Below, one piece after another: positions 11,329 to 34,894 of a stretch of DNA of 50,982 nucleotides. The translations under genes and the position numbers were made by a program. The notes beneath the pieces were generated by a model that was not told the origin of the DNA, searched no databases, and saw nothing but the letters and a program-made list of their open reading frames with translations. The stretch covers positions 1 through 50,982 of the forward strand of contig JAKDNL010000004.1 of NCBI GenBank assembly GCA_030451825.1. Reading direction: 5' to 3'. Position 1 is the first letter of the stretch, and every line of letters starts with the position of its first letter. The DNA comes from Pseudonocardia sp. Lineage in GTDB: Bacteria; Actinomycetota; Actinomycetes; Mycobacteriales; Pseudonocardiaceae.

Positions 11329-11423
11329 TTCCGCTGGTCGCGACGGAGGAGACCGCAGCCGCCCGACGCCGGGACGAAGGGAAGTCGGATGCGCCGGGGC
11401 CGGGCCGGTGGAACGGTCTCACC

Positions 11424-11759
11424 GTGGACTCCCCGGTGGCACGCTCGCCCGCCACGACCTGGCGGATCGGCCTTGCCGGCGGGCCCCTCATGGCGGTGAC
11501 GTTCGGCATGGTGCGCTATGCCTACGGCCTCACCCTGCCCGCCATCCGCACCGATCTGGTGCTCTCCGACCTCGTCCTCGGACTGATCGCCAGCGGCACG
11601 TTCCTCGGCTTCCTCGTCGCTCTGCTGCTGTCGACCCCCCTGTCGGCGAAGGCCGGTCCGCGGGCGTCCACGACACTCGGCGGCCTGGTGTGGCCGGTCG
11701 CTGGACCGGCGGCCTCGTCCAGCGTCTGCGCTCCGCCCCGGTCGCAGCCGTCTCGCTAG
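11424..11759 (+). pseudogene. Truncated MFS transporter remnant
   Basis: PLMAVTFGMVRYAYGLTLPAIRTDLVLSDLVLGLIASGTFLGFLVALLLSTPL resembles the N-terminal helices of an MFS protein, then degenerates and stops. Confidence 0.6.
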
Positions 11760-11959: not shown

Positions 11960-13183
11960 GTGTCGACCACGCGACCAGCCCAGGCCTGGATCGACGCCGG
12001 TGCCGGGGTGGCGGGCGACATGCTTCTCGGCGCCCTGCTCGACGCGGGAGCAGATCTCGACGCCGTCCGCTCCGCGGTGTCGGCCGTCGTCCCCGGAGAG
12101 GTCACGGTAGAGGCGGAGCCGGTGCACCGGGCAACTCTGCGCGCGACGCGGGCCCGGGTACGCAGCGTCGTTGCGGACCATCCACACCGGTCCTGGGCGA
12201 CGATCCGGCGGCTCCTCGACGACGCCGACCTCGCACCGGACATCCGAGCGCGGTCGGTTCGCGTGTTCTCCCTGCTCGCCGAGGCGGAGGGCCGGGTGCA
12301 CGGGGTTCCCGTGGACCATGTGGAGTTCCACGAGGTCGGCTCCTGGGATTCCATCGCCGACGTCGTCGGCACCTGTGCCGCGGTAGCCGATCTGGGGCTC
12401 GCCTCGATCACCGCCGGGCCGGTCGCACTCGGCTCGGGCCGTGCACGGTCCGCGCACGGCGAGATCCCGGTGCCGGTCCCCGCCGTTCTCGAGTTGGCCA
12501 GGGGCTGGCGGGTCACGACGGGCGGGGACGGCGAGCTGGCCACACCGACCGGGATGGCGCTGGTCCGCGGCCTGGCCGGGGCGTGCGGCCCACTCCCGGA
12601 GATGTGCGTCGACGGGGTCGGGATCGGGGCCGGGACCCGCGACGTCGACGGCCGCCCGAACGTCGTCCGGGTCGTGATCGGGGCCGGCGCTCCGGTGACC
12701 GGTGGGTCGACGGTGCAGGGGATGGTCGTCCTGGAGGCCAACGTGGACGACCTGGATCCGCGGGTCTGGCCGTCGGTGCTGCAGGCACTGCTCGACCACG
12801 GTGCGGCCGACGCCTGGCTGGTCCCGATCCTGATGAAGAAGGGGCGACCGGCCCACACCCTCCGGGTGCTGGGCCACGCCGACCACGCGGCCGAGCTGCG
12901 TGCCCTCGTGCTCGGGTCGACCTCCACACTCGGAGTCCGCCAGTCCGAGGTGTCCCGGTTCGCGCTGGACCGGGCATGGCGCAACGTGGCGGTACTCGGC
13001 GCCGACGTCCGGATCAAGCTGGGCCTGCAGGACGGCGCGATCGTGCACGCCGAACCCGAGTTCGACGACGTCGCGCAACTGGCCGGTAGCCGCGGGCTCC
13101 CGGTCCGCCAGGTCCTCGACGCGGCGTCGGCCGCCGCTGACACCGCCGGTCTGCGGCCGGGCGAGTACCCGGGGCCGGCCTGA
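11960..13183 (+). CDS. larC: LarC, nickel insertion protein for NPN cofactor maturation
   Basis: AWIDAGAGVAGDMLLGALLDAGA, VDHVEFHEVGSWDSIADVVG, ELATPTGMALVRGLA, VVLEANVDDLDPRVWPSVLQALLDHGAADAWLVPILMKKGRPAHTLRV; single uninterrupted ORF. Confidence 0.92.
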   Translation: MSTTRPAQAWIDAGAGVAGDMLLGALLDAGADLDAVRSAVSAVVPGEVTVEAEPVHRATLRATRARVRSVVADHPHRSWATIRRLLDDADLAPDIRARSVRVFSLLAEAEGRVHGVPVDHVEFHEVGSWDSIADVVGTCAAVADLGLASITAGPVALGSGRARSAHGEIPVPVPAVLELARGWRVTTGGDGELATPTGMALVRGLAGACGPLPEMCVDGVGIGAGTRDVDGRPNVVRVVIGAGAPVTGGSTVQGMVVLEANVDDLDPRVWPSVLQALLDHGAADAWLVPILMKKGRPAHTLRVLGHADHAAELRALVLGSTSTLGVRQSEVSRFALDRAWRNVAVLGADVRIKLGLQDGAIVHAEPEFDDVAQLAGSRGLPVRQVLDAASAAADTAGLRPGEYPGPA

Positions 13184-13185
13184 GT

Positions 13186-13863
13186 TCAGGTCGGAGCGGC
13201 GATCTGGGCGGCGAGGTGGCCGGCACCGTAGCCGTTGTCGATGTTGACGACGGCGACGCCGGGCGCGCAGGAGTTGAGCATCGTCAGGAGAGCGGCCACG
13301 CCGCCGAACGCGGCCCCGTACCCGACCGAGGTCGGCACGGCGACGACGGGCGCGGTTACCAGTCCGGCCACCACCGTGGGGAGGGCCCCGTCCATGCCGG
13401 CGGCGACGACGATCGCCCGGGCCGCGCACAGGTGGTCGAGTTGGGCGACGATGCGGTGCAGCCCCGCCACCCCGACGTCGACGATCAGTTCGGTCCGCCG
13501 GCCGAGGTGTGTGACGGTCAGCGCCGCCTCACGGGCGACCGGCAGGTCCGAGGTGCCGGCCGCGAGCACGACGACCAGGCCCCCGGTCGGTTCGGGCGGG
13601 GCCGGTGGCCAGGCCAGCAACCGGCACTCTTCGGCGTGGACAGCGTCCGGAAGGACGGCGAGCACCGCGGCGGCGTGCTCCGGGGGCGCGCGGGTGAACA
13701 GCGTCCGGAGCCCGCGCTCGCCGATCTCCGCCGCGATCGCGCGGACCTGCTCGGGGGTCTTGCCCTCGCAGAAGACCGCCTCGCCGTACCCGCGGCGGCG
13801 CGCTCGGTCCGTGTCGAGCCGGGCGAACTCCTCGAGCGGATCCGGCGGGTTCTCATCCGGCAC
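13186..13863 (-). CDS. larB: LarB, NPN precursor carboxylase/hydrolase (AIR-carboxylase-like)
   Basis: GYGEAVFCEGKTPEQV, VVLAAGTSDLPVAREAALT, VVAAGMDGALPTVVAGLVTAPVVAVPTSVGYGAAFGGVAALLTMLNSCAPGVAVVNIDNGYGAG. Confidence 0.93.
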   Translation of the reverse strand: MPDENPPDPLEEFARLDTDRARRRGYGEAVFCEGKTPEQVRAIAAEIGERGLRTLFTRAPPEHAAAVLAVLPDAVHAEECRLLAWPPAPPEPTGGLVVVLAAGTSDLPVAREAALTVTHLGRRTELIVDVGVAGLHRIVAQLDHLCAARAIVVAAGMDGALPTVVAGLVTAPVVAVPTSVGYGAAFGGVAALLTMLNSCAPGVAVVNIDNGYGAGHLAAQIAAPT

Positions 13864-14752
13864 AGCGGCCGCCGTCGATCAAGGGCAGGGTGAACGCCCC
13901 GGGCTGAAGTCCCGCGAGGTCCACGGACACGAACCGGAACCCGGCCCCCCGAACCGCGTCGAGAACGGCCTTCCGCCGCTCCCCCGTCGCCTCGGCGATC
14001 CGGTCGGCCGGCAGCTCGACGCGCGCGACGTCGCCGTGGTGGCGCACCCGGCAGTCGGGGAAGCCGAGCCGGTGCAGGGCGCGCTCGGACCGCTCGATCT
14101 CCGACATCTTCTCGGGTGTCACCTGCTCGAAGTGCGGGATCCGCGACGCGAGGCAGGGGGCGGCCGGCTTGTCGGCGCTGGGCAGGTTCATGGCCCGCGC
14201 GATGCGGCGCACGGCAGCCTTGTCGATGCCGGCCGCGGCGAGCGGGCGGAGCACACCGTGCTCGGTGGCCGCTCGCGCGCCGGGCCGGTCTCGCCGGACG
14301 ATGTCGTCGGCATTCTCCCCGTAGGCCACGGCGTCGAGCTCGTAGCGGTCGAGCACCTCCTCCTCGATGGTGGTGAACAGGGTGTCGCGGCAGTGGAAGC
14401 AGCGATCGGGTCCGTTCGCGCGGTAGGCCGCGCGCTCGGTCTCGGCGGTCGGTACCTCGACGACGGGTACCCCGACGAAGGCTGCGACGTCGTGCGCCGC
14501 CGCGCGCTCCTCGGCCGCGAGGCTCGGCGAGACGCCGACCAGGGCCAGCACCCGTCCGCGGCCGAGCGTGTCGGTGGCCAGGGCCAGCAGGGTCGACGAG
14601 TCGACGCCTCCGGACAGCGCCACCCCCACCCGCCGGTGCTCGGCAAGCTCTCTGGCGACGTGGCCCACCGCCGCCCGCTCGTCGTCCGACAGCGCACCGG
14701 ACCACGCGGTGGCGGTCGAGCGGGTGGTCGTCATGGCCTCCTCCTTCATCAC
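13853..14752 (-). CDS. larE: LarE, ATP-dependent sulfur transferase for NPN synthesis
   Basis: VALSGGVDSSTLLALA PP-loop; GPDRCFHCRDTLF; YGENADDI; PAAPCLASRIP; overlaps larB; exact start uncertain (14752 or 14734). Confidence 0.93.
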   Translation of the reverse strand: MMKEEAMTTTRSTATAWSGALSDDERAAVGHVARELAEHRRVGVALSGGVDSSTLLALATDTLGRGRVLALVGVSPSLAAEERAAAHDVAAFVGVPVVEVPTAETERAAYRANGPDRCFHCRDTLFTTIEEEVLDRYELDAVAYGENADDIVRRDRPGARAATEHGVLRPLAAAGIDKAAVRRIARAMNLPSADKPAAPCLASRIPHFEQVTPEKMSEIERSERALHRLGFPDCRVRHHGDVARVELPADRIAEATGERRKAVLDAVRGAGFRFVSVDLAGLQPGAFTLPLIDGGRCAG

Positions 14753-14779
14753 ATCGGATCCGGATCAATCCGCAAACGA

Positions 14780-16189
14780 TCAGACGACCGGGCTCTCGCC
14801 CGCGACGACCTCGTTCCGCGCGGTCGATCGCCGGGCCCGGGTCTCCTCGATCATCGTGGCGAAGACCGACTCGGTGAGCGGGTAGGCGAGGAAGACGGCG
14901 ACCCCGATCAGGATGAACGCCGCCGGGACGAATCCGGCGGTCGCCGCGATCCAGCCCAGGGCCTCGCCGGACTGCGCCGGCGCGTTGGCCACGTACCCGC
15001 CGAAGCCGATGGCATAGGCGGCGGCCGCGCCGCCGACCGCCTGACCGAGCTTGCGGGTGAACGAGAACATCGCGTACGTCGTGCCCTCGGTCCGGACGCC
15101 GGTACGCCACTCCCCGTACTCGACGGTGTCCGCCTCCAGCGCCCACATGAGGGTGTTGACCCCGGCCATCGAGACGCCCATCAGCGCGAACCCGATGATC
15201 GCGACCACCGGGACCGTGGGTGGGGCGAGCGAGATGACCACACCGGCCAGGACACCGAGCAGACCGAAACCGATGAACCCGCGCTTCTTCCCGACGGTGC
15301 GCACCAGACGGGGGATGAAGGGCGCGACGACGAAGATCGCGCCCGCACCCAGGATCGTCAGCAGGATGATGTAGTTGGCGTTGCCGAGCACATCGCGGGC
15401 GTAGTAGGCCTGCACGGTCTGCAGCGTGAACATGCCGCAGAGGAACGCCAGCGACGACAGGCAGAGCATGATCAGCGGCCGGTTGCTGCGCAACGTCCGC
15501 AGGCTCTGCCGCAGGCTGACGTGGGCGACGGTGCGGGCGACCTGCTCCGTCGACGTCCGGAACAGGAACAGATAGAGCCCGACGCCCAGCACGGTGAACA
15601 CGACCGTGGTCACCAGCAGCGACTGCTGGAAGCCGGCCGGATCACCGCGGAAGCGCTGGATCTGCGGGGCGACCACCAGGGCGAGCAGGATGATCGTGAG
15701 CGCGGTGCCGATCATGCGGAAGCTCGCGAGCGAACCGCGCTCCTCGGGCTGCTGCGTCATCGCCGAGGCCAGAGATCCGTACGGGATGTTGACCAGGCTG
15801 TAGGCCAGGCCCAGGGCGCCGTAGGTCAGGTAGGCGAGCAGCAGGGCGGTGCCGCCGTCGGCGAGCCCGGGCAGCGTGAAGGTCGCGACCGAGAGCAGCA
15901 TCAGCGGGACGCCGCCGAAGAGGAAGAAGGGCCGGAACTTGCCCCAGCGGCTCATGGTCCGATCGACCATCCGCCCGGCGAAGAGGTCCGCGAACGCGTC
16001 CCAGATCCGGATGACCAGGAAGAGGGTGCCGGCGGCGGCGGCGCTGATCCCGACGACGTCGGTGTAGTAGATCAGCAGGAACATCGAGGTCATCGAGAAC
16101 GCGAGGTTGTTCGCGGCGTCGCCCGCCGCGTATCCGAGGTACTGGGGCAGGCGCAGGCGCACTGCCCCGGCCGCATCACTGAGGCTCAT
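14780..16189 (-). CDS. GPH-family glycoside/hexuronide:cation symporter
   Basis: YLGYAAGDAANNLAFSMTSMFLLIYYTDVVGISAAAAGTLFLVIRIWDAFADLFAGRMVDRTMSRWGKFRPFFL, about 12 hydrophobic segments; adjacent to beta-glucuronidase. Confidence 0.9.
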   Translation of the reverse strand: MSLSDAAGAVRLRLPQYLGYAAGDAANNLAFSMTSMFLLIYYTDVVGISAAAAGTLFLVIRIWDAFADLFAGRMVDRTMSRWGKFRPFFLFGGVPLMLLSVATFTLPGLADGGTALLLAYLTYGALGLAYSLVNIPYGSLASAMTQQPEERGSLASFRMIGTALTIILLALVVAPQIQRFRGDPAGFQQSLLVTTVVFTVLGVGLYLFLFRTSTEQVARTVAHVSLRQSLRTLRSNRPLIMLCLSSLAFLCGMFTLQTVQAYYARDVLGNANYIILLTILGAGAIFVVAPFIPRLVRTVGKKRGFIGFGLLGVLAGVVISLAPPTVPVVAIIGFALMGVSMAGVNTLMWALEADTVEYGEWRTGVRTEGTTYAMFSFTRKLGQAVGGAAAAYAIGFGGYVANAPAQSGEALGWIAATAGFVPAAFILIGVAVFLAYPLTESVFATMIEETRARRSTARNEVVAGESPVV

Positions 16190-16209
16190 GGTGGCCGGCT
16201 CCTTGGCCG

Positions 16210-18027
16210 TCAGGCCTGATCGGGCCGGGACGGCGCGGACGGGGCCGCGAGGTCGCGGCGCCAGCGGCGGCGCAGGGCGAACGCGGCGCCCTTCGGGGCA
16301 CGGTCGCGGGTGAACACGCCCTTCTTGTTGCCGCCCACACGCATGGCCCCCGGAGTGGTGGCGAAGTCGGCGAAGTTCCAGACGTGCTCGCCCACGACGG
16401 CGTCGACGCGGTCGAACACGCGGTGGTTCATGTCCAGGTAGGCGACCTGGTACTCCTCGCTCCAGGGCTGCGGGTCCACCGCATGCATCCCGGGGAGGGT
16501 GTCGGCGCCGTACTCGGTGACGATGATCGGCTTGCCCTCGCCGGCCCAGGCGCGCAGCTCCTCGTCCCACGCCTGCTCCGCGGCCTCCAGGTCCCCGGCG
16601 TGGACGTACCACCCGTAGTACCGGTTGAGCATCAGCACGTCGGCGAAGCGCGAGACCCGGCACTTGCCGTGCGGGGCGAGCATCACGTTCACGAAGCCGG
16701 CGGGCCGGGTCGGGTCCGCCTCGCGCACGACGTCGAACAGCGGCCGGAAGTAGTGCTCAGCCTCCTCGGTGTCGGATTCGGGCTCGTTGGCGATGGACCA
16801 GAGGACGACGCTCGGGTGGTTCTTGTCCCGGGCGACGAGCTCGCGGATCGCCTGCGCGTGGACGCGCTGTGTCTCGTCGTTGATCGTGTCCTCGGAGAAG
16901 GTCTGGTAGCCCTGGCCACCGAAGATGCCGCCGCCGAGCCCCATGTTGAGGCCGACGGCCGCGGTCTCGTCGATCACGACGATGCCGTTGCGGTCGGCGT
17001 GGTCGAGGACGTCCTCCGAGTACGGGTAGTGCGAGGTGCGCAGCGAGTTCGCGCCGATCCACCCCAGCAGGGCGAAATCCTGCACCAGCAGGGCGTCGTT
17101 GTGCCCCTTGCCCAGGCCGGGGTGGTCCTCGTGCATCCCGAAGCCGGTGAATCGGAACGGCTCACCGTTGATCAGGAACTCGGTGCCGCGGACCTCGACG
17201 GTCCGGACGCCGACGGACTGGTGGTAGCTGTCGACGACCTCTCCGGCATGGTCGAGAAGCTGCAGCTCCAGGTCGTAGAGGTAGCCGTCGCCTGGCGCCC
17301 AGGGGTGCACCGGGTCGACGGCGATCGTGGCGTCGGTCCCGGACGCTCGGCCGACCTCGATGCCGTCGGCGTCGCGGAGCACGGCGCGCGCATCGAGGCC
17401 GTCGGCGGCGACGGCCGAGGCCGTGTAGCGCACGGTTCCGGCCGTTCCGTCGAGCGCGGTGACCACGGTGACGTCGTCGAGGTGGGCGACCGGGGTGGCC
17501 GAGAGCCAGACGCTGCGGTGGATCCCGGCGTAGTTGAAGAAGTCGTGCCAGTAGCGCTGCCGCGGCCCGACGGCGGTCTGTTCGATGACGCCGGGCGGGA
17601 TCGTCCGGAAGCTCAGCCGGTTGTCGACGCAGACGGTGAGACGGACCTCGTCCCCGGGCTGCACCAGCTCGCTGACGTCGGCCTCGAAGGGCGTGTACCC
17701 GCCCTCGTGCGACACGACCGCGGTGTCGCCCACCCACACCGTCGCCCGGTGCGTCGCCGACTCGAGGTGCACGGCGATGCGCCGGCCCGACCAGCCACGG
17801 GGGATCCGGACCGTGCGCTGATACCACACCTCACCGGAGTGGTCACGCACGCCGGCGTCGGCCAGCAGGTCGTTGTAGCTGGCGGGCACGGCCATCTGCA
17901 CCCCGCCGGCCAGCGGCGCGGCGAACCACCGCTCCTCGCGGCCGACACCCTCGGTGTCGACGCGGAACGACCACAGGCCGTCGAGCGACTTGCGTTCCCG
18001 GGTCCGGGTGTCCTGTGGGCGAAGCAT
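16210..18027 (-). CDS. uidA: Beta-glucuronidase (GH2)
   Basis: MLRPQDTRTRERKSLDGLWSFRVD, RTSHYPYSEDVLDHADRNGIVVIDE, VVLWSIANEPES (acid/base Glu), PIIVTEYGADT (nucleophile Glu). Confidence 0.92.
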   Translation of the reverse strand: MLRPQDTRTRERKSLDGLWSFRVDTEGVGREERWFAAPLAGGVQMAVPASYNDLLADAGVRDHSGEVWYQRTVRIPRGWSGRRIAVHLESATHRATVWVGDTAVVSHEGGYTPFEADVSELVQPGDEVRLTVCVDNRLSFRTIPPGVIEQTAVGPRQRYWHDFFNYAGIHRSVWLSATPVAHLDDVTVVTALDGTAGTVRYTASAVAADGLDARAVLRDADGIEVGRASGTDATIAVDPVHPWAPGDGYLYDLELQLLDHAGEVVDSYHQSVGVRTVEVRGTEFLINGEPFRFTGFGMHEDHPGLGKGHNDALLVQDFALLGWIGANSLRTSHYPYSEDVLDHADRNGIVVIDETAAVGLNMGLGGGIFGGQGYQTFSEDTINDETQRVHAQAIRELVARDKNHPSVVLWSIANEPESDTEEAEHYFRPLFDVVREADPTRPAGFVNVMLAPHGKCRVSRFADVLMLNRYYGWYVHAGDLEAAEQAWDEELRAWAGEGKPIIVTEYGADTLPGMHAVDPQPWSEEYQVAYLDMNHRVFDRVDAVVGEHVWNFADFATTPGAMRVGGNKKGVFTRDRAPKGAAFALRRRWRRDLAAPSAPSRPDQA

Positions 18028-18116
18028 CGCGACTCCTTCGTCGTCGTGGCAGCCGTTCCGGCGCGGGCCGGCGGATCGGTGGTTCCGGCACATTGAGGCA
18101 AGCGCGCCGATGCCCC

Positions 18117-18130
18117 GGCAATTCGTTGCC
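18117..18130. promoter_or_regulatory. Candidate LacI-family operator, copy 1: GGCAATTCGTTGCC
   Basis: Perfect GGCAA/TTGCC arms with 4-nt spacer in the uidA/lacI divergent intergenic region; same arms and spacing at 20477. Confidence 0.72.
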
Positions 18131-18159
18131 ACCAGTTGCCCCGCCGTTAGGCTGCACCG

Positions 18160-19173
18160 GTGGCGGACCGCCCGACCATCTACGACGTCGCGCGCTCCGC
18201 CGGGGTGGCCCCGTCCACGGTCTCGCGCGCCCTCGCCCGCCCCGGACGGGTCAGCGCCGGCACCGCCGAGCGCGTCCGCGCCGCCGCCGCGGAGCTCGGC
18301 TACCGGGCGCTCCCCCAGGCCAGGGCGGCGTCCACGGCCGCGACCGGCATGATCGCGCTGGTCATCTCCGACATCACGAACCCGTTCGGCTTCGAGATCA
18401 TCCGCGGGGCCGAGCACGCCGCATCCGACGCCGGCTACACGATGATCCTCTCCGACGCGCAGGAGTCGGGTACCCGGGAACGCACGCTCGTCGAGCGGGC
18501 GATGCCGAGCGTGGACGGGATCGTGCTGGCGAGCTCCCGGATGTCGGACTCCACGATCCGCATGATGGCAAAGCAGAAGCCGACGGTCGTCCTCAATCGC
18601 GCCGTGCTCGACGTGCCGAGCGTGGTCACCGACAACCGCCGCGGCGCCGCCGCAGCGGTCGAGCACCTGCGCGAGCTCGGCCACGACGCGGTCTCCTATC
18701 TCGCCGGTCCGGAGGCGTCCTGGGCCGACGGCACGAGATGGAAGGCGGTGCTCGAGGCGGCGCAGATCGCGGGCGTGCGCGCCCGGCGCGCCGGGCCGGC
18801 GGTCCCGACGGTCGACGGCGGTGTCGCGGCCGCCGCCGAGCTCGGCGACCCGCTGCCGACCGCCGTCGTCGCCTTCAACGACCAGGTCGCGATCGGGCTC
18901 GTCCGCGGCCTGCGCCGGCGCGGGGTGGACGTGCCCGGCGACGTCAGCGTCGTCGGTTTCGACGACATCATGCTGGCCCGCCTCGTCACACCGGAGCTCA
19001 CGACCGTGGCCGCGCCGCTGCGGACCATGGGCGGCGTCGCGGTCCGCAACCTGCTCGCCCAGATCGCCTCCTCCGGCGCGACGCCGGCCCGCTCGGCCGA
19101 GCTACCGGCCCAGCTGGTGGTGCGGGCCTCGACGGGGCCGCGACGCCGCCGGGTACGTCAGCGCAGCCGGTAG
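18160..19173 (+). CDS. LacI family transcriptional regulator
   Basis: GTG start; PTIYDVARSAGVAPSTVSRALARPGRVSAGTAERVRAAAAELGYR; periplasmic-binding-like domain. Confidence 0.94.
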   Translation: MADRPTIYDVARSAGVAPSTVSRALARPGRVSAGTAERVRAAAAELGYRALPQARAASTAATGMIALVISDITNPFGFEIIRGAEHAASDAGYTMILSDAQESGTRERTLVERAMPSVDGIVLASSRMSDSTIRMMAKQKPTVVLNRAVLDVPSVVTDNRRGAAAAVEHLRELGHDAVSYLAGPEASWADGTRWKAVLEAAQIAGVRARRAGPAVPTVDGGVAAAAELGDPLPTAVVAFNDQVAIGLVRGLRRRGVDVPGDVSVVGFDDIMLARLVTPELTTVAAPLRTMGGVAVRNLLAQIASSGATPARSAELPAQLVVRASTGPRRRRVRQRSR

Positions 19174-20423
19174 AGGACCTCCCCCGCCTGCGCGACGACC
19201 AGGGTGTCCGGATCGGCACGCTCGGCGTCGAGGTCGACCGCCGCCGGGTCGAGGTAGGACAGGTTCGCCGCCCGCACCACCTGCTCCGGGATCCCGGTGG
19301 CCAGGGTGACCCGCACCCGGCACCGCTCGCCGTGTTCGGCGTCGTAGGTGCCGGCTCCGCGCAGGTGGGTGGAGTGCGCGAGCACGCCCCACGGCAGGTG
19401 GGCGAACCGCTCCCACTGCGCCACGAAGTAGTCCCGGCAGTGGTAGCCGATCTCCTCGATCTCCGGGTGCATCGCCGAGATGGTCGTGATGTGCGGGGCG
19501 TAGAGGACGACCTCGCCGCCGTCGGCCACCACGGGTTCGAGCTTGTAGAAGCCCTTCGCGGCGGTCCAGATGTCCTCGTACTTGTCGGGCATGACCGACA
19601 CGACCCGCCGCACCGGCGCGTCCAGGTAGCGCACGTGCGCCCCGGCGGCCACCTCCGCCGCAGCTGCCCAGGCAGCCTCCGGGCTCCCGAACGCCACCGA
19701 GTGCAGCTCGTCCGACCCCGACCGCACGACCAGGCACAGCGCGTACCGCTGCACCGGCACCATCGCGGCCGCCTCGTCGATCAGGGCACGCACCGGGGTC
19801 GTCCCGCGGGTCCCGATGATCTCCACGCTGGAGATGAGGGCACCGAGCCAGTGCGACAGGTCGATGATCTCCGGCCCGGCGACCCCCGGGAAGAAGTACT
19901 TGTTCCCGCCGGAGAAGCCGGCGACCTCGTGCGGGAACACCGGGCCGACGACGAGCGCGACGTCTGCCTCCACGACGTGCCGGTTGAGCCGGACGTCGAC
20001 CGGGTGGTGCAGGCGCCCCCCGGAGAGCTCCGCAACCCGGGCGGCGGGGATCGTCCCCACCGACACCAGGGTCTCCGGGAGCCACCACTCGTGGTTGCGC
20101 ACCGTCATGCCCGGATAGGTCGACCCCAGGTCACCGTCGACGTAGCCGAGGTGGGCGGCCAGCCGGTCGTCGGCCATCGCCGCGTGGGTGCCCAGCGCCG
20201 TCAGCACCACCAGGCGGCTCGCCCGGCCGGCCAGCGACTCGTGGACCGCGGCGAGCAGCAGTGGAAGCGGACAGGTGCGGGTGCCGTCGGGCACCACGAC
20301 GCACACCGAGCGGCCCTCCACCTGGATCCCCGCGAGCTGCTCGCGGACGAAGGCCCGCACGTCGTCCGCGGAGAGCACCGTGTCGGCGGAGCCGAGGGAT
20401 GCACATTCTGCCGTGTCCGTCAC
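19158..20423 (-). CDS. LarA-family NPN-dependent racemase/epimerase homolog; predicted sugar-acid epimerase
   Basis: GTG start; VVPDGTRTCPLP, TALGTHAAM, FPHEVAGFSGGNKYFFPGVAGPEIIDLSHWLG, MPDKYEDIWTAAKGFYKL match the Arg, His, pincer-anchoring Lys, Ni-ligand His and Lys motifs of LarA. Confidence 0.85.
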   Translation of the reverse strand: MTDTAECASLGSADTVLSADDVRAFVREQLAGIQVEGRSVCVVVPDGTRTCPLPLLLAAVHESLAGRASRLVVLTALGTHAAMADDRLAAHLGYVDGDLGSTYPGMTVRNHEWWLPETLVSVGTIPAARVAELSGGRLHHPVDVRLNRHVVEADVALVVGPVFPHEVAGFSGGNKYFFPGVAGPEIIDLSHWLGALISSVEIIGTRGTTPVRALIDEAAAMVPVQRYALCLVVRSGSDELHSVAFGSPEAAWAAAAEVAAGAHVRYLDAPVRRVVSVMPDKYEDIWTAAKGFYKLEPVVADGGEVVLYAPHITTISAMHPEIEEIGYHCRDYFVAQWERFAHLPWGVLAHSTHLRGAGTYDAEHGERCRVRVTLATGIPEQVVRAANLSYLDPAAVDLDAERADPDTLVVAQAGEVLYRLR

Positions 20424-20476
20424 GCACCCCACGATCGAGCGGAGGGGCGGCGCAGGCAAGCCGCGCGGCAAGTCGT

Positions 20477-20490
20477 GGCAACCCGTTGCC
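20477..20490. promoter_or_regulatory. Candidate LacI-family operator, copy 2: GGCAACCCGTTGCC
   Basis: Same GGCAA-N4-TTGCC palindrome between divergent larA-like and uxaC genes; extra half-site GGCAA at 20467-20471. Confidence 0.72.
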
Positions 20491-20521
20491 CGACCGGACC
20501 CGGCTGCGGATCGTGACATCC

Positions 20522-21931
20522 ATGCCGGCACTGCAGCCCCATCCCGACCGCCTGCTCCCCGCCGACCCCGCGACGCGGGCGGTGGCCCGCCGGCTCTACG
20601 CCCTGGTGCGTGACCTGCCGATCCTGTCCCCGCACGGGCACGTCGACGCGGGCGTGCTGGAGCGCGACGAGCCCTTCGCCGACCCGGCGACGCTGCTGGT
20701 CACCCCCGACCACTACGTGACCCGGTTGCTGCACGCCTCGGGCGTGCCGCTGACCGAACTCGGCGTCGGAGCCGAGCCGCTCGATGAGCCGGGCGCGCGC
20801 CATGCCTGGCGCACCTTCTGCCGGCACTGGCCGGTGTTCCGGGGCACCCCCGTCCGGCACTGGATCGAGTCGGAGCTCGCGGAGATCTTCGGTGTCACCG
20901 AGCGGCCGGCCGACGGTACCGCCGACGCGATCTTCGACCAGGTGTCGGCGGCACTGGCCAAGGACGAGTTCCGGCCCCGGGCGCTGTTCCGGCAGTTCGG
21001 GATCGCGGTCCTGGCGACCACCGACGACCCGGCCGACGACCTCGCCGCGCACGCCGCCCTGCGCGCCGACACCTCCTGGGACCGGCGGGTCGTCCCCACC
21101 TTCCGGCCGGACCGCTACCTCGAGCCGGCGGCCGACGGGTGGGCCGCCGGCGTGGCCGCGCTGGGCCGGACCGCCGACGTCGACACCGGGACCTACGCCG
21201 GCTATCTCGCCGCGTTGGCGCGGCGCCGCCGGCACTTCGTCGAGCACGGCGCGACCTCGGCCGACCACAGCCACGCGGACGTGCGTACCGACCCCCTGGA
21301 CCCCTGCACCGCGGCCGACATCTACGCGCGGGCGCTGCGGGGCGAGGCATCCGCCGGCGAGTCGCTGGCGTTCCGGCGCCACATGCTTCTGGAGATGGCC
21401 CGCATGTCCACCGAGGACGGCCTGGTGATGACGCTGCACCCGGGCATCCGGCGCAACCACCACGGGCCGACGTTCCGGGCCTTCGGCCCCGACCGCGGCC
21501 ACGACATCCCGACCGGCATCGAGCTCACCGACGCGCTGCGCCCGCTGCTCGAGCGCTTCGGCACCCACCCCGGCTTCACGCTGGTCGTGTTCACCACCGA
21601 CGAGAGCGTGTTCTCCCGCCAGCTCGCCCCGCTCGCCGGGTTCTACCCGTCGGTCTACGTCGGCGCGCCGTGGTGGTTCCTCGACGCGCCCGACGCGATC
21701 CGCCGCTGGCGCGAGGCGGTCACCGAGACCACGGGCTTCACCCGCACCTCCGGGTTCGTCGACGACACCCGGGCGTTCTGCTCGATCCCGGCCCGCCACG
21801 ACATGTCGCGGCGCCTGGACGCCGGTCACCTGGCCAGGCTCGTCCTCGAGCACCGACTGGAGGAGGACGAAGCCGCCGAGACCGCGCTCGCCCTGGTGAC
21901 CGAGAACCCGCGACGGGCGTTCAAGCTGTGA
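20522..21931 (+). CDS. uxaC: Uronate isomerase (glucuronate isomerase)
   Basis: LPILSPHGHVDAGVL, FGIAVLATTDDPADDL, VVPTFRPDRYLEP, DHSHADVRTDPL, FVDDTRAFCSIPARHDMSRR. Confidence 0.93.
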   Translation: MPALQPHPDRLLPADPATRAVARRLYALVRDLPILSPHGHVDAGVLERDEPFADPATLLVTPDHYVTRLLHASGVPLTELGVGAEPLDEPGARHAWRTFCRHWPVFRGTPVRHWIESELAEIFGVTERPADGTADAIFDQVSAALAKDEFRPRALFRQFGIAVLATTDDPADDLAAHAALRADTSWDRRVVPTFRPDRYLEPAADGWAAGVAALGRTADVDTGTYAGYLAALARRRRHFVEHGATSADHSHADVRTDPLDPCTAADIYARALRGEASAGESLAFRRHMLLEMARMSTEDGLVMTLHPGIRRNHHGPTFRAFGPDRGHDIPTGIELTDALRPLLERFGTHPGFTLVVFTTDESVFSRQLAPLAGFYPSVYVGAPWWFLDAPDAIRRWREAVTETTGFTRTSGFVDDTRAFCSIPARHDMSRRLDAGHLARLVLEHRLEEDEAAETALALVTENPRRAFKL

Positions 21932-23304
21932 GCACCCAGCGCGCCGCACAGCGGCTGACCCGCTCGAGCGGACACGTCCGGCCCGCCGCTCCCGTCCGCA
22001 TCGTGCACCTGGGTCTCGGCAACTTCTTCCGCACCCACCAGGCCTGGTACACCGACCACGCCCCCGATCGCGAGGACTGGGGCATCGCCGCCTTCGGTGG
22101 CCGGGGCACCGAGCCCGCGCGGTCCCTCGCCGCCCAGGACGGCCTCTACACCCTGATCACCCGCGGGCCCGGGACACCGACCTTCGAGACGATCACCAGC
22201 GTGTCCGCCGCCCACGCGGCCACCGAACACGACCGGTTCCGCACCCTCGTCGCCACCGCCGCGGTGGCCGTCGTGACCCTCACCGTGACCGAGGCCGGCT
22301 ATCGGCGCGCACCGGACGGGACGCTCGACACCGCCGATCCCGCAGTCGCGGCCGACCTCGCCACCCTGCGGGCCGACCCGCAGGCGCCCGCGGCGACCGT
22401 CCCCGTGCGGCTCGCCGCCGGTCTCGCCGCGCGACGGGCGGCCGGCGCCGGACCGATCGCGATCGTGTCCTGCGACAACCTCGCCGGCAACGGACCGGCC
22501 ACCCGACGCGTGGTCCTCGACGCCGCCGAGCTGCTCGACCCGGCACTGGCCCGCTGGATCGACGACCAGGTCACGTTCCCCGCGACCATGGTCGACCGCA
22601 TCACGCCGCGCACCACCACCGACGACCTGGACCAGGTCCGGAACGACCACCACGTCGACGACCCGGTCCCGGTCGTCACCGAGCCCTTCTCCGAATGGGT
22701 AGTGGCCGACTCCTTCCCGGCGGGCCGGCCACGCTGGGAGGACGCCGGGGCCCGCCTCGTCGCCGACGTCGAGAACCACGAGGCGCGCAAGCTGCTGATG
22801 CTCAACGGCAGCCACTCGCTGCTCGCCTACGCAGGCCCGCTGCGCGGACACACCACCGTCGCCGACGCGATCGCCGATCCCGTCGTCCGCGGTTGGGTGG
22901 AACAATGGTGGGACGTCGCCGGCCGCCACGTCCCCGTCCCCGACCTCGGGGGCTACCGCGACCAACTGCTCGACCGGTTCGCCAACCCGGCCATGCGCCA
23001 CCTGCTGGGCCAGATCGCCGCGGACGGCTCGGAGAAGCTGCGGGTACGGACCGTTCCGGTCCTGCGCACCGAGCGACGCGCGGGAGAGCTCCCGGTCGGG
23101 GCGGTGCGCGTTCTCGCGGCATGGCTCCTGCACCTGCGGGGCACCGACGTCGCGGACCCCGCCCGCGACGCTCTCACCGCCGCAGCCCGAGGCGAGCTCC
23201 ATGCTGCGGCAGCGGGCGTCCTGGCGGTGCTCGACCGCGACCTCGCCGCCGACGCCGCCCTGGTCCGGGCCGTCGCCGGCGAAGCCGGACGGCTCGGGAC
23301 GTGA
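21928..23304 (+). CDS. Fructuronate reductase / mannitol dehydrogenase family protein
   Basis: GTG overlapping uxaC stop; VRIVHLGLGNFFRTHQAWYTD, VSCDNLAGNGPATRRVVLD, FPATMVDRITPRTTTDD, EARKLLMLNGSHSLLAYAG. Confidence 0.92.
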   Translation: MSTQRAAQRLTRSSGHVRPAAPVRIVHLGLGNFFRTHQAWYTDHAPDREDWGIAAFGGRGTEPARSLAAQDGLYTLITRGPGTPTFETITSVSAAHAATEHDRFRTLVATAAVAVVTLTVTEAGYRRAPDGTLDTADPAVAADLATLRADPQAPAATVPVRLAAGLAARRAAGAGPIAIVSCDNLAGNGPATRRVVLDAAELLDPALARWIDDQVTFPATMVDRITPRTTTDDLDQVRNDHHVDDPVPVVTEPFSEWVVADSFPAGRPRWEDAGARLVADVENHEARKLLMLNGSHSLLAYAGPLRGHTTVADAIADPVVRGWVEQWWDVAGRHVPVPDLGGYRDQLLDRFANPAMRHLLGQIAADGSEKLRVRTVPVLRTERRAGELPVGAVRVLAAWLLHLRGTDVADPARDALTAAARGELHAAAAGVLAVLDRDLAADAALVRAVAGEAGRLGT

Positions 23305-24113: not shown

Positions 24114-24283
24114 GGTCGACTCCTCGGGTCGGCGGTCGGATCTCTCGGACGGTTCGACCGCTACGGCCGGTGCGAGGTTGTGATCCGAACGGGTGTATCG
24201 GGCCGGGCCGGCCACTCCCCTATCCGGTGATCGTGCTGATTGAATGCGTCCACTGGCTCAGCGACGGCACTCCGGGGGGACGG

Positions 24284-27200
24284 GTGACCACAGTCGATCG
24301 GGCGATCGCGGTCGCCGGGCGCGCGGGGCTGTTCGCGAGCGCGTGCGTGCGGGTCCGCGACCTGGGTGGGTTCGTTGTCGGCTCGGGCTTCCTCGTCGGA
24401 CCGGACATGGTCGCGACCTGCGCGCACGTCGTCGCCGAGGCGGTGGACGGTCGCGCGGACTCCCCGGAGCCGCCGACCGGCGAGGTCACGCTGGACTTCC
24501 CGGTACTCGGTGACGCCCCCGCCGCCCGCACGGCGCGGATCGCCCGCTGGTCGCCGATCGACGACGACGGCCGCGGGGACGTCGCGCTGCTCCGGCTGTC
24601 CGGGCCCGCCCCGGCGGGGGCTGTGATGCCACCGCTGCGCGGCGGCGACGAGTCCCGCTGGGACCACCGGTTCCGGGTCTTCGGCTTCCCCGAGGGCCAG
24701 GACGACGGGGTGTGGGCCACCGGCCGGATCCGTGGCGTCCAGGGCACCGGCTGGCTGCAGCTACAGGGCGCACCCGGGGACCATCCGGTGGTCGGCGGGT
24801 TCAGCGGCTCCCCGGTCTGGGACGACGACTCCGGCGCCGTGATCGGGATGACGGTCGCGGCGGACCGGCTGCCCGGCGTCACGACCGCCTACCTGATCCC
24901 GGTCGCCGACGTGCTCGGGCTGGACCCGGAGCTGCTGCCCTGCCCGTACCGGGGAGCCGAGCCGTTCGAGGAGGAGCACTCCGAGGTCTTCTTCGGCCGC
25001 GAACCGGAGCTGGCGCGGCTGCGCCAGGCACTGGCCGACGGACCGGTGGCCGCCGTCGCCGGACCGTCCGGTGCGGGCAAGTCCTCGTTGGTGCGGGCCG
25101 GTCTGCTCCCCGGGATGCGCCGGGGCAGGACGCCGATCGCCGAGGTCCGTGCCGACCCGCCGGAGCGTGTGCTCGAATCCCTGGCCGCAGCGGTGCTGCG
25201 CCTCACCGAGCCGGGGACCGCACCGGCCCGGTCGGCGCGGGAGGCGGCCCGGATCGGCGGGCTGCTGTCAGTCTCCGCGTCCCGGCCCGCCGGGATCGAC
25301 GAGCTGGCTGCCGCCCTGTCCGGGACGGGGCCGGCGCTCCTGGTGTTCGACCAGTTCGAGGAGCTGGTGGATGCCGCGCCGGACCGGGCCCGGGTGGTGC
25401 TGGATGTGCTCGCCGGGCTCGTCGGCGCGGGGGGCGCGGAGGGCGCTGCCGGGCTGCGGGTGGTGCTCACGGTACGTGCCCGAGCGCTGGAAGAGGTGCT
25501 CACCACGCGAACCGCGCGGCTGCTCGGGGCCGGGACAGTGCTGGTCGGATCACTCGATCCGGCCCGGCTGCGGGAGACCGTGGAGCGCCCCGCCGGGGTC
25601 GCCCCCGGCCTGCGGTTCGCGGACGGTCTGGTGGACCGGATCCTGGCCGACGCCGACCCCGATGCGGGGCCCGGTCAGCTTCCGCTCATCCAGGAGCTGC
25701 TGGTGCAGCTCTGGCACCGGCGCGACGGCGGCACCCTGACCTGGGACGCGTACCAGGACGCCGGCGGTGTGGCCGGGGCGCTCGCGCGGCACGCCGACCG
25801 TGCGGCCGCGGCGGTCGCCGTCGGCCCCGAGCCGGACCGGGAGCTGGACACACTGCTCGCCCGGCTGGTCGCGGTGGACCGGGACGGACGGGCGGCCCGT
25901 CGTGGTGTGCGGTACCGGGACCTGCCGGCACCGCAGCGGGCACTGGTGACCCCGCTCGCCGCCTACCGGCTCGTGACGGTGACCGGCCAGGGCGACGACG
26001 CCGTCGTCGAGACCGCACACCAGTCACTGGCCGAGCACTGGCCAAGGATGCGCCGGGTGATCGACGACGACCGGGACTTCCTGGCCTGGCGGACCGAGCT
26101 CGACGCCGCACGGCAGCGCTGGCTGGCCACCGGCCGGGACGACGACGCGCTGTTGCGCGGAGTCGCGTTGGCCGAGGCCGGTCGCCGGCAGGACCGGGCC
26201 GGCGAGCTCACCGGCGAGCAGACCGACTACCTGGATCGCAGCCGGGACCGGCGCCGCCGCGAGCTCCGGCGCCGCCGCGCCGGGATCGTCGCCCTCGCCC
26301 TCGCCCTGGTCGTCGCCGCGATCGTGTCGGTGGTGGCGGTCCGCAGCCGGGCCGACGCCGACGCCCGGGACGCGGCGGCCACCCTGGCGCGCGAGTCGGA
26401 CACCCGGGCCGGGGCCGACCCTGCCCTCGCCGCCGAGCTGGCCGCGACGGCGTGGCGCACGGCCCCGGACGAACCCACCGCGCACCAGGCGCTGGCGCGC
26501 CGGTACGGCGAACTGGCCGGGGTCGACGGCTACGTCGCACCCCTCGACAGCGCGGGCCGTACCGAGGTGTTCAGCGGTGGTTCGGGGGACGCCGCATCGT
26601 TGCTCGTGATCACAGAGGACCCGGGCGGGCAGCTCCGGTTCTCGCTGACCGGCGGAGCGCTCGGGCCACGGCCGCGACCGCACGACCCGCCGCCGGGCCG
26701 GCACGACAACGCGGTCCTGTCGGCGGACGGGCGGTGGGCCGCGCTGCACCGCCGGGACGGCGGCGTCGAGCTCGTCGACCTGGCCGCACCGCCGGGAACG
26801 GCGCCGGTCGAGCTCACCGGAGCGGGCCGGACCGGGTCGGTCCTGTTCACCCCGGACGCGACCCGCCTCGGCTGGGTCGAGCGGGACCCGACCGGAGCGA
26901 GCGCCACGGTCCGGGAACGGGACCTGCACTCCGGCGCGACCCGGACCCTGCCGTTGACGTTCGGGCCCGAGCCCGTGTCGGTCCAGCTGCTCGACGGTCC
27001 GGACCGGGCGCTGGTCCGGGTCGGCGAGGACGGACCGGCCCGGCTGGTCACGTCGAGCACCGGCGCTGTGCTCGACGGTGCACCACCCGGGGACTCGATC
27101 CTGGTCTCCGGCCCGACCCCGATGGTGGAGTCGTGCGGCGGCCCGGCGTCGGCACGCGTCCTGAGCCTGCGTCCGCTCGGCGGCGGCGCCACCCGCACGA

Positions 27201-28486
27201 TCCCGCTGTGGGGCCGGTCCTGCCACGACGCCCGGTTGAGCGGCGACGGGCGGTGGTCGCTGGTCGACGACACGCTGACCAGCGGGCAGCAGCGCTGGCG
27301 GGCGACCGAGGTCACGACCGGCCGGGTGGTCCAGTTCCACACACCCGAGCTGGACCCCCACGCGTGGTCCGACCGGCAGGCCGACGGGATCGCCCTGGTC
27401 GACACCGCCGACGGCCCGGTCGCCCTGGTCGCCGCCGGCTCGGCCGTGCTCCGGGTACCCACCGCGCCGGCCCACCCGGTCGGCGACGGCCAGGGGATGC
27501 TGGACCGTTTCCCGACCGAGGACCCGCCCGGGACGGTGGTCTCGGCCGACCCGCCGGACCTGGTGTCCGCCGACGCCCGCACCGGCCGGGAACTCGCCCG
27601 CCTGCCCGGCGTGCTGCACCGTGGGAGCGGCTGGATGTCGGGCGGGCCGGACCTGTGGACGCTGACCGGTGGCCCGGACGGCGGCTGGCTGCTGAGGGCC
27701 CACCGGACCGGGACGCTCGCCGAGCACCTGCGCATCCGGCCGCCCGGCGGACCGGTGGGACGGGCTGGTGTGAACGCCGCACTCGCCCGCCTACCGGACG
27801 GCCGGATCACCGGCATGGTCGCCCTGGTCGACGGGGTCCTGTCGGCGTGGGATCCACGGACCGGCACGCAGATCGGGGAGCCGCTGCCGGTGGCCCGCAC
27901 CCCGGACGACACGGCCTGGTACCGGGAGAACGGGTGGGTATCCGGGCGCCCGGGACACCCGGGCCAGGCGCTGGTCAGCGGGCCCGGTGGCCGGCTGGAG
28001 CTGTGGGACGTGCCGGGCCGCCGGATGCTGCGGGAGCTACCGGTACGGGCACCGTCGGCGCGGTCGGTGGCCGTGGACGCCGACCGGGTCGCCGTGGCCT
28101 CCGGCCGGCAGACGCTGGGCGTCTGGGACCTCGACACCGGCGCGGAGGTGGTGGACGACGTGCCGGTGCCCGCGCTGCGCCTGCTCGCCGGGTTCACCAC
28201 GGATGGCCTGCTGGTCGCGGCGTCCGAGGAGGTCGAGACCCGGATCCTGCTGCTCGATCCGGAGCGGAGGGCGGTGACCGCCACGCTGCCGGTGCACACC
28301 GCAGGCTCGATCCAGGTGGTCGGCCGCAATCTCCTCGTGGAGGGCACCACCGGCGCACTGCCACAGGTTCTGTCGACCGACCCCGCCATCTGGCAGGAGA
28401 CGGTCTGCCGGGCGCTCCCGGCGGAGCCGTCACCGGCCGCGCGGGCGGCGCTTCCGGATGCGGCGAGCCGGGAGCCCTGCGGGTGA
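24284..28486 (+). CDS. Trypsin-like peptidase - nSTAND NTPase - TM - beta-propeller-like protein
   Basis: Protease motifs MVATCAHVV (His), GDVALLRLS (Asp), GGFSGSPVWDDDSGAVIG (Ser); Walker A VAGPSGAGKSSLVRAGLLPGM; Walker B-like LLVFDQFEELVDA; TM GIVALALALVVAAIVSVVAV; repetitive WD40-like C-terminus. Confidence 0.85.
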   Translation: MTTVDRAIAVAGRAGLFASACVRVRDLGGFVVGSGFLVGPDMVATCAHVVAEAVDGRADSPEPPTGEVTLDFPVLGDAPAARTARIARWSPIDDDGRGDVALLRLSGPAPAGAVMPPLRGGDESRWDHRFRVFGFPEGQDDGVWATGRIRGVQGTGWLQLQGAPGDHPVVGGFSGSPVWDDDSGAVIGMTVAADRLPGVTTAYLIPVADVLGLDPELLPCPYRGAEPFEEEHSEVFFGREPELARLRQALADGPVAAVAGPSGAGKSSLVRAGLLPGMRRGRTPIAEVRADPPERVLESLAAAVLRLTEPGTAPARSAREAARIGGLLSVSASRPAGIDELAAALSGTGPALLVFDQFEELVDAAPDRARVVLDVLAGLVGAGGAEGAAGLRVVLTVRARALEEVLTTRTARLLGAGTVLVGSLDPARLRETVERPAGVAPGLRFADGLVDRILADADPDAGPGQLPLIQELLVQLWHRRDGGTLTWDAYQDAGGVAGALARHADRAAAAVAVGPEPDRELDTLLARLVAVDRDGRAARRGVRYRDLPAPQRALVTPLAAYRLVTVTGQGDDAVVETAHQSLAEHWPRMRRVIDDDRDFLAWRTELDAARQRWLATGRDDDALLRGVALAEAGRRQDRAGELTGEQTDYLDRSRDRRRRELRRRRAGIVALALALVVAAIVSVVAVRSRADADARDAAATLARESDTRAGADPALAAELAATAWRTAPDEPTAHQALARRYGELAGVDGYVAPLDSAGRTEVFSGGSGDAASLLVITEDPGGQLRFSLTGGALGPRPRPHDPPPGRHDNAVLSADGRWAALHRRDGGVELVDLAAPPGTAPVELTGAGRTGSVLFTPDATRLGWVERDPTGASATVRERDLHSGATRTLPLTFGPEPVSVQLLDGPDRALVRVGEDGPARLVTSSTGAVLDGAPPGDSILVSGPTPMVESCGGPASARVLSLRPLGGGATRTIPLWGRSCHDARLSGDGRWSLVDDTLTSGQQRWRATEVTTGRVVQFHTPELDPHAWSDRQADGIALVDTADGPVALVAAGSAVLRVPTAPAHPVGDGQGMLDRFPTEDPPGTVVSADPPDLVSADARTGRELARLPGVLHRGSGWMSGGPDLWTLTGGPDGGWLLRAHRTGTLAEHLRIRPPGGPVGRAGVNAALARLPDGRITGMVALVDGVLSAWDPRTGTQIGEPLPVARTPDDTAWYRENGWVSGRPGHPGQALVSGPGGRLELWDVPGRRMLRELPVRAPSARSVAVDADRVAVASGRQTLGVWDLDTGAEVVDDVPVPALRLLAGFTTDGLLVAASEEVETRILLLDPERRAVTATLPVHTAGSIQVVGRNLLVEGTTGALPQVLSTDPAIWQETVCRALPAEPSPAARAALPDAASREPCG

Positions 28487-32091: not shown

Positions 32092-33204
32092 CTAGCCCGG
32101 CTGCACCGCGACGCGGTGGTGGATACCGAGATCGGGTAGGAGCGGGAAGGTGTGCCTCGCCAGGCCATCGAGGTCCTCGACGTAGTCGGGCACCATGACC
32201 ATCAGACCGTCGAGGTCGCCCTCGGTGATCGCTGTCGCGAGGCGACGGGCGAGCGTTTCATAGGAGCCGACCATCGTCCCGGGAAGCACGCAGCTCCGCT
32301 CCACGCCGCCGCTGAGCGACGTCGACGCGTCGCTGAGTGCGGCCCGGTTGCGGTTCTGCGAGTAGCCGGCCTCGATGTCGTCGAGGCACTCGAGGTCGAC
32401 CCCCGCGTTGAAGTGATCGAGCCTCGCATCTGCCTCCTCGTCGGTCGCGGCCGGGATGAGGCTCACGACACCGTAGGTAGCAAAGCCGTCGCGGCCGAGG
32501 TCGCGCGCGATTTCCTTGCCGCGCCGTGCGGTCTCGATCGCGGCCGGGTCGTCACCGGCGGAGATGAAGGCGACGTCGCAGTTCTCGGCCGCGAACCGGA
32601 ACCCGCGCGGTGAGGCTCCTGCGTTGATCAGCCGGGGCATGACCGCCGGCTTCGGCCCCATGGTGCCCTCGAGGGTCTCGAAGAACCTGCCCTTGTGATC
32701 GACGACCTCCTCGGTCCAGAGCCTCTTGACCACGGAGATCCACTCGTCGCCCATGTCGTAGCGCTCGTCGTGGGCGAGGTCGTCGTTCCACAGGCCGATG
32801 TGGGCGAGATCGAGGTAGCTGGGGCCGGTAACCACGTTGAGGCCGGCACGACCGGGCGCGATCTGGTCCATCGTCGCGACCATCTTGGCGATGGTCGCGG
32901 GTGGGAACACCGTCATGTGAGCCGTGCTGTACACCTTGATCTGCGCGGTCGCCTGGAGCAGAGCCGCGGATGTCGTCAGCGACTCGAGCACGTCGCCCCA
33001 GTGCTGTGAGGGGCCCTTGCGACCTCGCCAGATCGACGGGCTGAGGACGAAGTCGAATCCGATCGATTCGGCCGCCTGCACCACCCGGAGGACCCTGGCG
33101 TAGGACGCATCCTCCGCCGCCGGCGCGTTCACGGAGTGCACCCAGCCGTGACGTCCGACCGGGAGGAATACTCCGGTATCGATTTCCTTGGTCACTTCTT
33201 TCAT
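32092..33204 (-). CDS. RutA-like flavin-dependent monooxygenase (luciferase-like), paralog 1
   Basis: IDTGVFLPVGRHGWVHSVNAP, FDFVLSPSIWRGRKGPSQHWGDVLESLT, GRAGLNVVTGPSYLDLAHIGLWND, GTMVGSYETLARRL. Confidence 0.85.
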   Translation of the reverse strand: MKEVTKEIDTGVFLPVGRHGWVHSVNAPAAEDASYARVLRVVQAAESIGFDFVLSPSIWRGRKGPSQHWGDVLESLTTSAALLQATAQIKVYSTAHMTVFPPATIAKMVATMDQIAPGRAGLNVVTGPSYLDLAHIGLWNDDLAHDERYDMGDEWISVVKRLWTEEVVDHKGRFFETLEGTMGPKPAVMPRLINAGASPRGFRFAAENCDVAFISAGDDPAAIETARRGKEIARDLGRDGFATYGVVSLIPAATDEEADARLDHFNAGVDLECLDDIEAGYSQNRNRAALSDASTSLSGGVERSCVLPGTMVGSYETLARRLATAITEGDLDGLMVMVPDYVEDLDGLARHTFPLLPDLGIHHRVAVQPG

Positions 33205-33278
33205 CCTTCCGGGTCAGGTCGGGAGAGACGTGAACGCGGCGGCGGCCCGGCGGTCGGGCGGTCGATCGCTCGTGCCAG

Positions 33279-34379: not shown

Positions 34380-34420
34380 GCTCGTCGTCCTTCCTCGGTT
34401 GTGCACCTCTGCCGCGGCCG

Positions 34421-34894
34421 TCACCGGTAACCGCCCCTGAAATAGAGGAGCGGTTCGCCGCCGCCCCGCTCCGGCGGCCCCGCCCCCTCGACGCGGCCGA
34501 TGACGATCAAGTGGTCACCGGCGGGGTGTTCGTCCTCGATCGTGCAGTCGAGCCACACGAGGCAGTCGTCGATGGCAGGGTTGCGCTTCGGCGTCCGGCT
34601 CCACCGCACCCCGGCCCACTTGTCCGCCCCGCTGCGGGAGAACTGGCTCGACAGCTCCTGTTGTGGCCGGGCGAGCACGTTCACCGCGAACCGTCCCGTC
34701 TCACGGATTCGCGGGTACGACGTCGAATCGTGCTTGACGCTGAAGGACACGAGCGGCGGATCCAGCGAGACGCTGTAGAACGACTGGCAGGTGAAGCCGA
34801 CGGGTTCGTCGCAATGCACGGACGCGATGATGGTGATGCCGGCCGCGTAGTGGCCCACGGTGTCCCGGAATGCGCGCGGGTCGATCGCCGTCAT
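34421..34894 (-). CDS. Flavin reductase (RutF/HpaC-like)
   Basis: FRDTVGHYAAGITIIASVHCDEPVGFTCQSFYSVSLDPPLVSFSVKHDSTSYPRIRETGRFAVNVL. Confidence 0.92.
   Translation of the reverse strand: MTAIDPRAFRDTVGHYAAGITIIASVHCDEPVGFTCQSFYSVSLDPPLVSFSVKHDSTSYPRIRETGRFAVNVLARPQQELSSQFSRSGADKWAGVRWSRTPKRNPAIDDCLVWLDCTIEDEHPAGDHLIVIGRVEGAGPPERGGGEPLLYFRGGYR

Follow-up and report, generated by a model that had tools for sequence, protein, structure and literature searches.

Organisation of the locus

The gene for a predicted nickel-pincer (LarA-family) epimerase lying among beta-glucuronide utilisation genes of Pseudonocardia sp. (contig JAKDNL010000004.1, assembly GCA_030451825.1) was analysed in a window of 50,982 nt, this being the whole stretch of DNA considered, in which the locus spans positions 11960-23304 and ends at the stop of a uxuB-like gene. 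A first-pass annotation had proposed that the LarA homolog epimerises D-mannonate at C2 to D-gluconate, bypassing the mannonate dehydratase UxuA and feeding 6-phosphogluconate through gluconate kinase. The locus contains the following genes:

11960-13183, plus strand: larC (LarC1 and LarC2 fused), nickel-insertion protein of the nickel-pincer (NPN) cofactor pathway; TIGR00299 and NF052512 over cut-off, Pfam Ni_insertion
13186-13863, minus strand: larB, NPN cofactor biosynthesis; NF033503, 271 bits, cut-off 175
13853-14752, minus strand: larE, sacrificial sulfur transferase; TIGR00268, 268 bits, cut-off 150
14780-16219, minus strand: GPH-family glucuronide:cation symporter (gph); NF007353, 521 bits, just under the cut-off of 528; TIGR00792 over cut-off
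16210-18051, minus strand: gusA, beta-glucuronidase (GH2); NF007538, 860 bits, cut-off 544
18160-19173, plus strand: LacI-family regulator (lacI); Pfam LacI and Peripla_BP_3; shares its last 16 bp with larA
19158-20423, minus strand: larA (GntE-type), predicted D-mannonate/D-gluconate 2-epimerase, 421 residues; 4NAR best by sequence and fold; Pfam Lar_N, 77 bits, over cut-off
20519-21931, plus strand: uxaC, glucuronate isomerase; NF002794, 535 bits, cut-off 387
21928-23304, plus strand: uxuB-like fructuronate reductase (mannitol dehydrogenase family); Pfam Mannitol_dh N- and C-terminal domains; NCBIfam matches below cut-off

The larB, larC, larE, larA, beta-glucuronidase, GPH symporter, lacI and uxaC genes named by the first-pass annotation were all found intact where it had placed them, with scores over the family thresholds or nearly so. 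The two parts of the LarC fusion scored 193 and 127 bits, both over their NCBIfam cut-offs, and with LarB, LarC and LarE all encoded in the window and over cut-off, the set of NPN cofactor genes for the LarA superfamily is complete. The annotated fructuronate reductase stood as a gene of the Mannitol_dh family and not as a family assignment, its best NCBIfam matches being D-arabinitol 4-dehydrogenase (260 bits) and fructuronate reductase (251 bits), both far below cut-off; from the genomic context we infer that its exact substrate is fructuronate.

On the minus strand, gusA, gph, larE and larB are tightly packed, with overlaps of 10 bp (gusA/gph) and 11 bp (larE/larB) and a 27-bp gap between gph and larE, and on the plus strand uxaC and uxuB overlap by 4 bp. 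The larA gene is divergent from uxaC (95 bp apart) and gusA from lacI (108 bp apart). This packing suggests five transcripts, namely gusA-gph-larE-larB, larA alone, uxaC-uxuB, lacI, and larC facing larB. Because larE and larB would, on this spacing, be co-transcribed with gusA and the symporter gene, the nickel cofactor appears to be tied to glucuronide use.

Identity of the LarA protein

A phmmer search against solved structures returned 4NAR, the GntE2 of Thermotoga maritima, with an E-value of 4e-63, all other structures, lactate and malate racemases included, scoring 4e-9 or worse; for GntE2 the epimerisation of D-mannonate to D-gluconate has been demonstrated (PMC7583248). An AlphaFold model of the protein (pLDDT 88.9) superposed on 4NAR with a TM-score of 0.88 and on lactate and malate racemases with 0.73 or less. 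Alignment to 4NAR and to LarA bore out the active site noted as complete in the first-pass annotation, all seven superfamily residues being present: catalytic D46, H80, H165 and K290 (D72, H108, H174 and K298 in the LarA reference) and NPN-binding R49, K175 and H191 (R75, K184 and H200). At the substrate positions the protein has E166-V167 in the loop after the catalytic histidine and W286 in helix 11, with A289 preceding the catalytic K290. Residues E166, V167 and W286 were invariant in a 27-row alignment and in a wider set, and were kept in every clade member sampled. A clade member with 51% identity occurs in a genome of the same order (G695). Elsewhere in the class, nearly all the LarA proteins found have F-F and Y at these positions (mostly F-F/Y/V). 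A loop EV/S with a helix-11 tryptophan is the reported signature of LarA groups 18-20.

In a phylogeny against characterised LarA clades, the actinobacterial clade grouped with GntE2 and the group-18 proteins, opposite the lactate and malate racemases, an arrangement for which the program warned of long branches. By sequence, by fold and, subject to that warning, by side of the tree, the closest characterised relative is therefore a GntE. The likeness to GntE2 (LarAH20) extends to the loop glutamate, the helix-11 tryptophan and the hexuronate context, whereas the loop reads E-V here and E-S in GntE2, and the residue before the catalytic lysine is alanine here and glycine there. Moreover, T. 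maritima also has UxuA, as the search control returned, whereas the Pseudonocardia genome has no mannonate dehydratase.

A common lactate or malate racemase standing beside a uronate cluster by chance is a highly improbable reading: the protein shares the superfamily (Lar_N) with these enzymes, but scored 70-100 bits against model cut-offs of 460-500 (70 bits against 460 for lactate racemase, NF033504), lacks their substrate residues (the loop being E-V, not F-F), and larA and uxaC are found as neighbours again in many families. Membership of group 18 (LarAH18, "putative hexonate epimerase", NF052594), which shares the E-V loop and the tryptophan, was likewise rejected, the protein reaching 156 bits where the cut-off is 500, and falling in a separate clade of the tree. 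Identity to group 20 is low. By elimination of the other groups, and because GntE1 is actinobacterial, the protein likely belongs to group 19, the GntE1 group; GntE1 (LarAH19) of Corynebacterium glutamicum is also found in a uronate-linked context and has reported gluconate 2-epimerase activity (PMC7583248).

Mannonate dehydratase and the LarA clade across genomes

A search of the whole Pseudonocardia genome returned no UxuA, and ManD, the second type of mannonate dehydratase, was sought there and not found (best E-value 5e-9), so that the first-pass observation of no mannonate dehydratase at the locus extends to the genome, which, taking UxuA or ManD as the sign of the Ashwell pathway, does not show that pathway. 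A KDPG (2-keto-3-deoxy-6-phosphogluconate) aldolase gene had also been reported as not visible; this holds for the locus, but the gene is encoded elsewhere in the genome, paired with edd. A GntK gluconokinase, sought at the suggestion of the same annotation, is present outside the window, and the gene for 6-phosphogluconate dehydrogenase (gnd) lies beside dnaN- and recF-like genes.

A total of 375 genomes of the class was searched with profiles for UxaC, UxuA and the LarA clade, and ManD was searched in all genomes with UxaC (UxaC+). The LarA clade was discrete, its lowest member, a fragment, scoring 518 bits and the next LarA 89 bits. It was found in 18 of the 375 genomes, 15 of these being UxaC+ (Fisher 2e-11), and UxaC itself was found in 54. 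Among UxaC+ genomes, UxuA or ManD was present in 1 of 15 carrying the clade and in 36 of 39 lacking it (Fisher 3e-9; p = 5e-4 after collapsing genera), the genomes being phylogenetically related such that the Fisher values overstate independence. Three UxaC+ genomes had neither the clade nor a dehydratase. UxuA alone gave a weaker contrast (0/15 versus 11/39, p = 0.018), so the exclusion depends on counting ManD, a family that also includes enzymes of other or low activity. In 16 genomes ManD was located no more than 15 kb from uxaC, and in 3 this held for UxuA, so that the counts largely concern the same pathway. Both states occurred in different species within each of two genera (g54 and g70); in g54, the species without larA carries ManD about 10 kb from uxaC, adjoining gusA on the contig of the uxaC-uxuB-gusA cluster, and another species has larA. 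This distribution suggests that the LarA clade does stand in for the usual mannonate dehydratase.

A group-18 hexonate epimerase (586 bits) was observed in a genome that also has UxaC and ManD (locus L107, genome G361), placing group 18 outside the exclusion pattern there.

Neighbourhoods of larA in relatives

The surroundings of larA were tabulated for 80 related actinobacterial loci, the window locus and two loci of the same genome being excluded and some loci ending early at contig ends. Near larA were found uxuB (48 loci), uxaC (42), lacI (39), gusA (21), 6-phosphogluconate dehydrogenase (16) and gntK (4); uxuA was found near larA in none of the 80. An FGGY gluconokinase-like gene lies in or beside the cluster in three genomes lacking GntK (G072, G020 and G212).

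These neighbourhoods bear on the proposal, along the lines that Desguin et al. suggested for group 19, that the enzyme acts on C5 of glucuronate or fructuronate, an alternative also named in the first-pass annotation, or on an aldarate (e.g. glucarate to mannarate). It is quite unlikely. The C5 of a uronate is indeed alpha to a carboxylate, and GntE1 combines a high Michaelis constant (KM) for mannonate with a uronate context (PMC7583248), but the cluster in the window showed no gene for aldarate metabolism, and the proposal leaves unexplained both the gnd and gluconokinase genes beside larA and the lack of both mannonate dehydratases in clade genomes when nearly all other UxaC+ genomes have one.

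In Alteromonadaceae, LarAH18 has GntK and LarB as partners, and either gnd or UxaC is close by. A single 589-residue gene on a plasmid of Saccharobesus litoralis (NZ_CP026605.1, L119:5446-7215) joins a GntK-type gluconokinase (185 bits) to a LarAH18 domain (619 bits, over cut-off), and is followed by larB, tagaturonate epimerase and gnd; the fusion hints that group 18 makes or uses gluconate. In Catenovulum adriaticum, uxaC, gluconokinase, larA, larC and larB form one gene run.

Such a fusion would also be compatible with a pathway in which mannonate is phosphorylated first and LarA epimerises 6-phosphomannonate to 6-phosphogluconate, though it fits either order. Extracts of Lactobacillus suebicus showed phosphorylation before epimerisation, with no gene assigned (PMC6978723), and, were it true here, larA would be the first gene for that orphan 6-phosphomannonate 2-epimerase activity. 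It is nevertheless improbable, as characterised GntE enzymes use free D-mannonate (PMC7583248) and E. coli GntK is cited as unable to use mannonate (PMC6978723).

Four clade larA genes, of Kribbella (L035, L072 and L080) and Amorphoplanes auranticolor (L047), are solitary, with no uronate genes within 10 kb and uninformative surroundings; a flavin monooxygenase-like gene comes after larA in each of the Kribbella loci. In another genome of the same family, a clade larA (G597:C1:5134138-5135197, L141) extends across several reading frames instead of one, through pseudogenisation or sequencing errors.

Putative operators

Two palindromes of the form GGCAA-N4-TTGCC were identified:

18117-18130, strand not assigned: GGCAATTCGTTGCC, putative LacI operator in the gusA/lacI gap; exact match, with a single other in the 51-kb window
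20477-20490, strand not assigned: GGCAACCCGTTGCC, putative LacI operator in the larA/uxaC gap; the other exact match, recurring in larA/uxaC intergenic regions of relatives

The exact motif thus occurs once in each divergent promoter region and nowhere else in the 51 kb; allowing up to one mismatch, three matches were found in the window against a shuffle mean of 0.5, although the copies had first been spotted by eye and this is not a blind test. Relatives give the stronger test: among 39 divergent larA/uxaC gaps, the window's own included, the site was exact in 14 and within one mismatch in 22, compared with 1.0% and 2.4%, respectively, of equally long random stretches drawn from these loci. 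We infer that the LacI protein would bind both palindromes; together with their recurrence in relatives, the two copies imply a single putative LacI regulon.

Proposed pathway

From what was seen of the genes, of the LarA residues and fold, of genome content and co-occurrence, and of the conserved operators, we consider with good confidence that the cluster is a LacI-controlled glucuronide regulon in which a predicted NPN-dependent 2-epimerase replaces the mannonate dehydratase step. Glucuronides would enter through the GPH symporter and GusA would release glucuronate, which UxaC would isomerise to fructuronate and the UxuB-like reductase would convert to D-mannonate. With the NPN cofactor presumably made by LarC, LarB and LarE, LarA (GntE) would use proton-coupled hydride transfer to invert D-mannonate at C2, yielding D-gluconate, and the gluconokinase encoded elsewhere would then form 6-phosphogluconate, the predicted flux continuing through Edd-Eda or 6-phosphogluconate dehydrogenase. 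The first two steps are those of the Ashwell pathway (UxaC-UxuB-UxuA-KdgK-Eda), from which the proposed route differs in the absence of the UxuA/ManD step and in converging at 6-phosphogluconate rather than 2-keto-3-deoxygluconate. The C2 epimerisation proposed in the first-pass annotation is thus favoured, at the level of sequence comparison, by the kinship with GntE2, the GntE signature, the lack of UxuA and ManD and their near-perfect mutual exclusion with the clade, and its predicted entry into 6-phosphogluconate is consistent with the gluconokinase, edd-eda and gnd genes of the genome.

Several points weigh against this interpretation in addition to the relatedness of the genomes compared. 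Identity to GntE2 is only about 33%, the C. glutamicum GntE1 has a very high KM for mannonate (PMC7583248), and the UxuB-like protein falls below the fructuronate reductase cut-offs. The window encodes no gluconokinase; GntK was over cut-off in only 6 of the 15 GntE+ UxaC+ genomes, for which reason the TIGR01313 gluconokinase was rejected as a universal partner, and the FGGY candidates score below their cut-off. Many larA genes are solitary, with no uxaC within 10 kb, and one genome (G212) has GntE and ManD together. The Pseudonocardia assembly is 94% complete with 8% contamination; an incomplete assembly is nonetheless unlikely to be the cause of the missing UxuA, as 14 of the 15 clade-bearing UxaC+ genomes, this one included, have neither dehydratase.

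The reaction and the idea of the pathway are already published: a mannonate-to-gluconate route in Thermotoga was predicted, as later papers cite it, by Rodionova et al. (2012), activity was shown for GntE1 and GntE2 by Desguin et al. (2020; PMC7583248), and a Phytophthora enzyme was added by Urdiain-Arraiza et al. (2024). What is new is the glucuronide setting and the pattern of dehydratase replacement; no paper linking lactate racemase, glucuronate and mannonate dehydratase was found in a search that reached little of the subscription literature. In view of its high KM for mannonate, Desguin et al. did not settle what GntE1 acts on natively, and suggested a uronic or aldaric acid as a possible substrate of group 19 (PMC7583248). 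That UxaC-bearing actinobacteria have, almost without overlap, either the LarA clade or a mannonate dehydratase points to mannonate as the native substrate of the actinobacterial GntE, and makes this question directly testable. The proposed route from glucuronides to 6-phosphogluconate would be nickel-dependent and would give access to NADPH and pentoses; its genes are often annotated as lactate racemase.

Other features of the window

Just upstream of larC, positions 11370-11756 encode a truncated major facilitator superfamily transporter covering the first ~75 of 364 positions of a YbfB-type profile, which could be the trace of an insertion or deletion at the edge of the cluster. Positions 24230-28483 encode a large protein that combines Trypsin_2 and nSTAND1 NTPase domains with an extended C-terminal region, a domain make-up as in some conflict or defence proteins. 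Two luciferase-like monooxygenases adjoin a flavin reductase at 32092-34894, forming an oxidative set, and at 40-2032 an intradiol dioxygenase is followed by an iron-containing alcohol dehydrogenase, perhaps for hydroxyquinol and maleylacetate steps.

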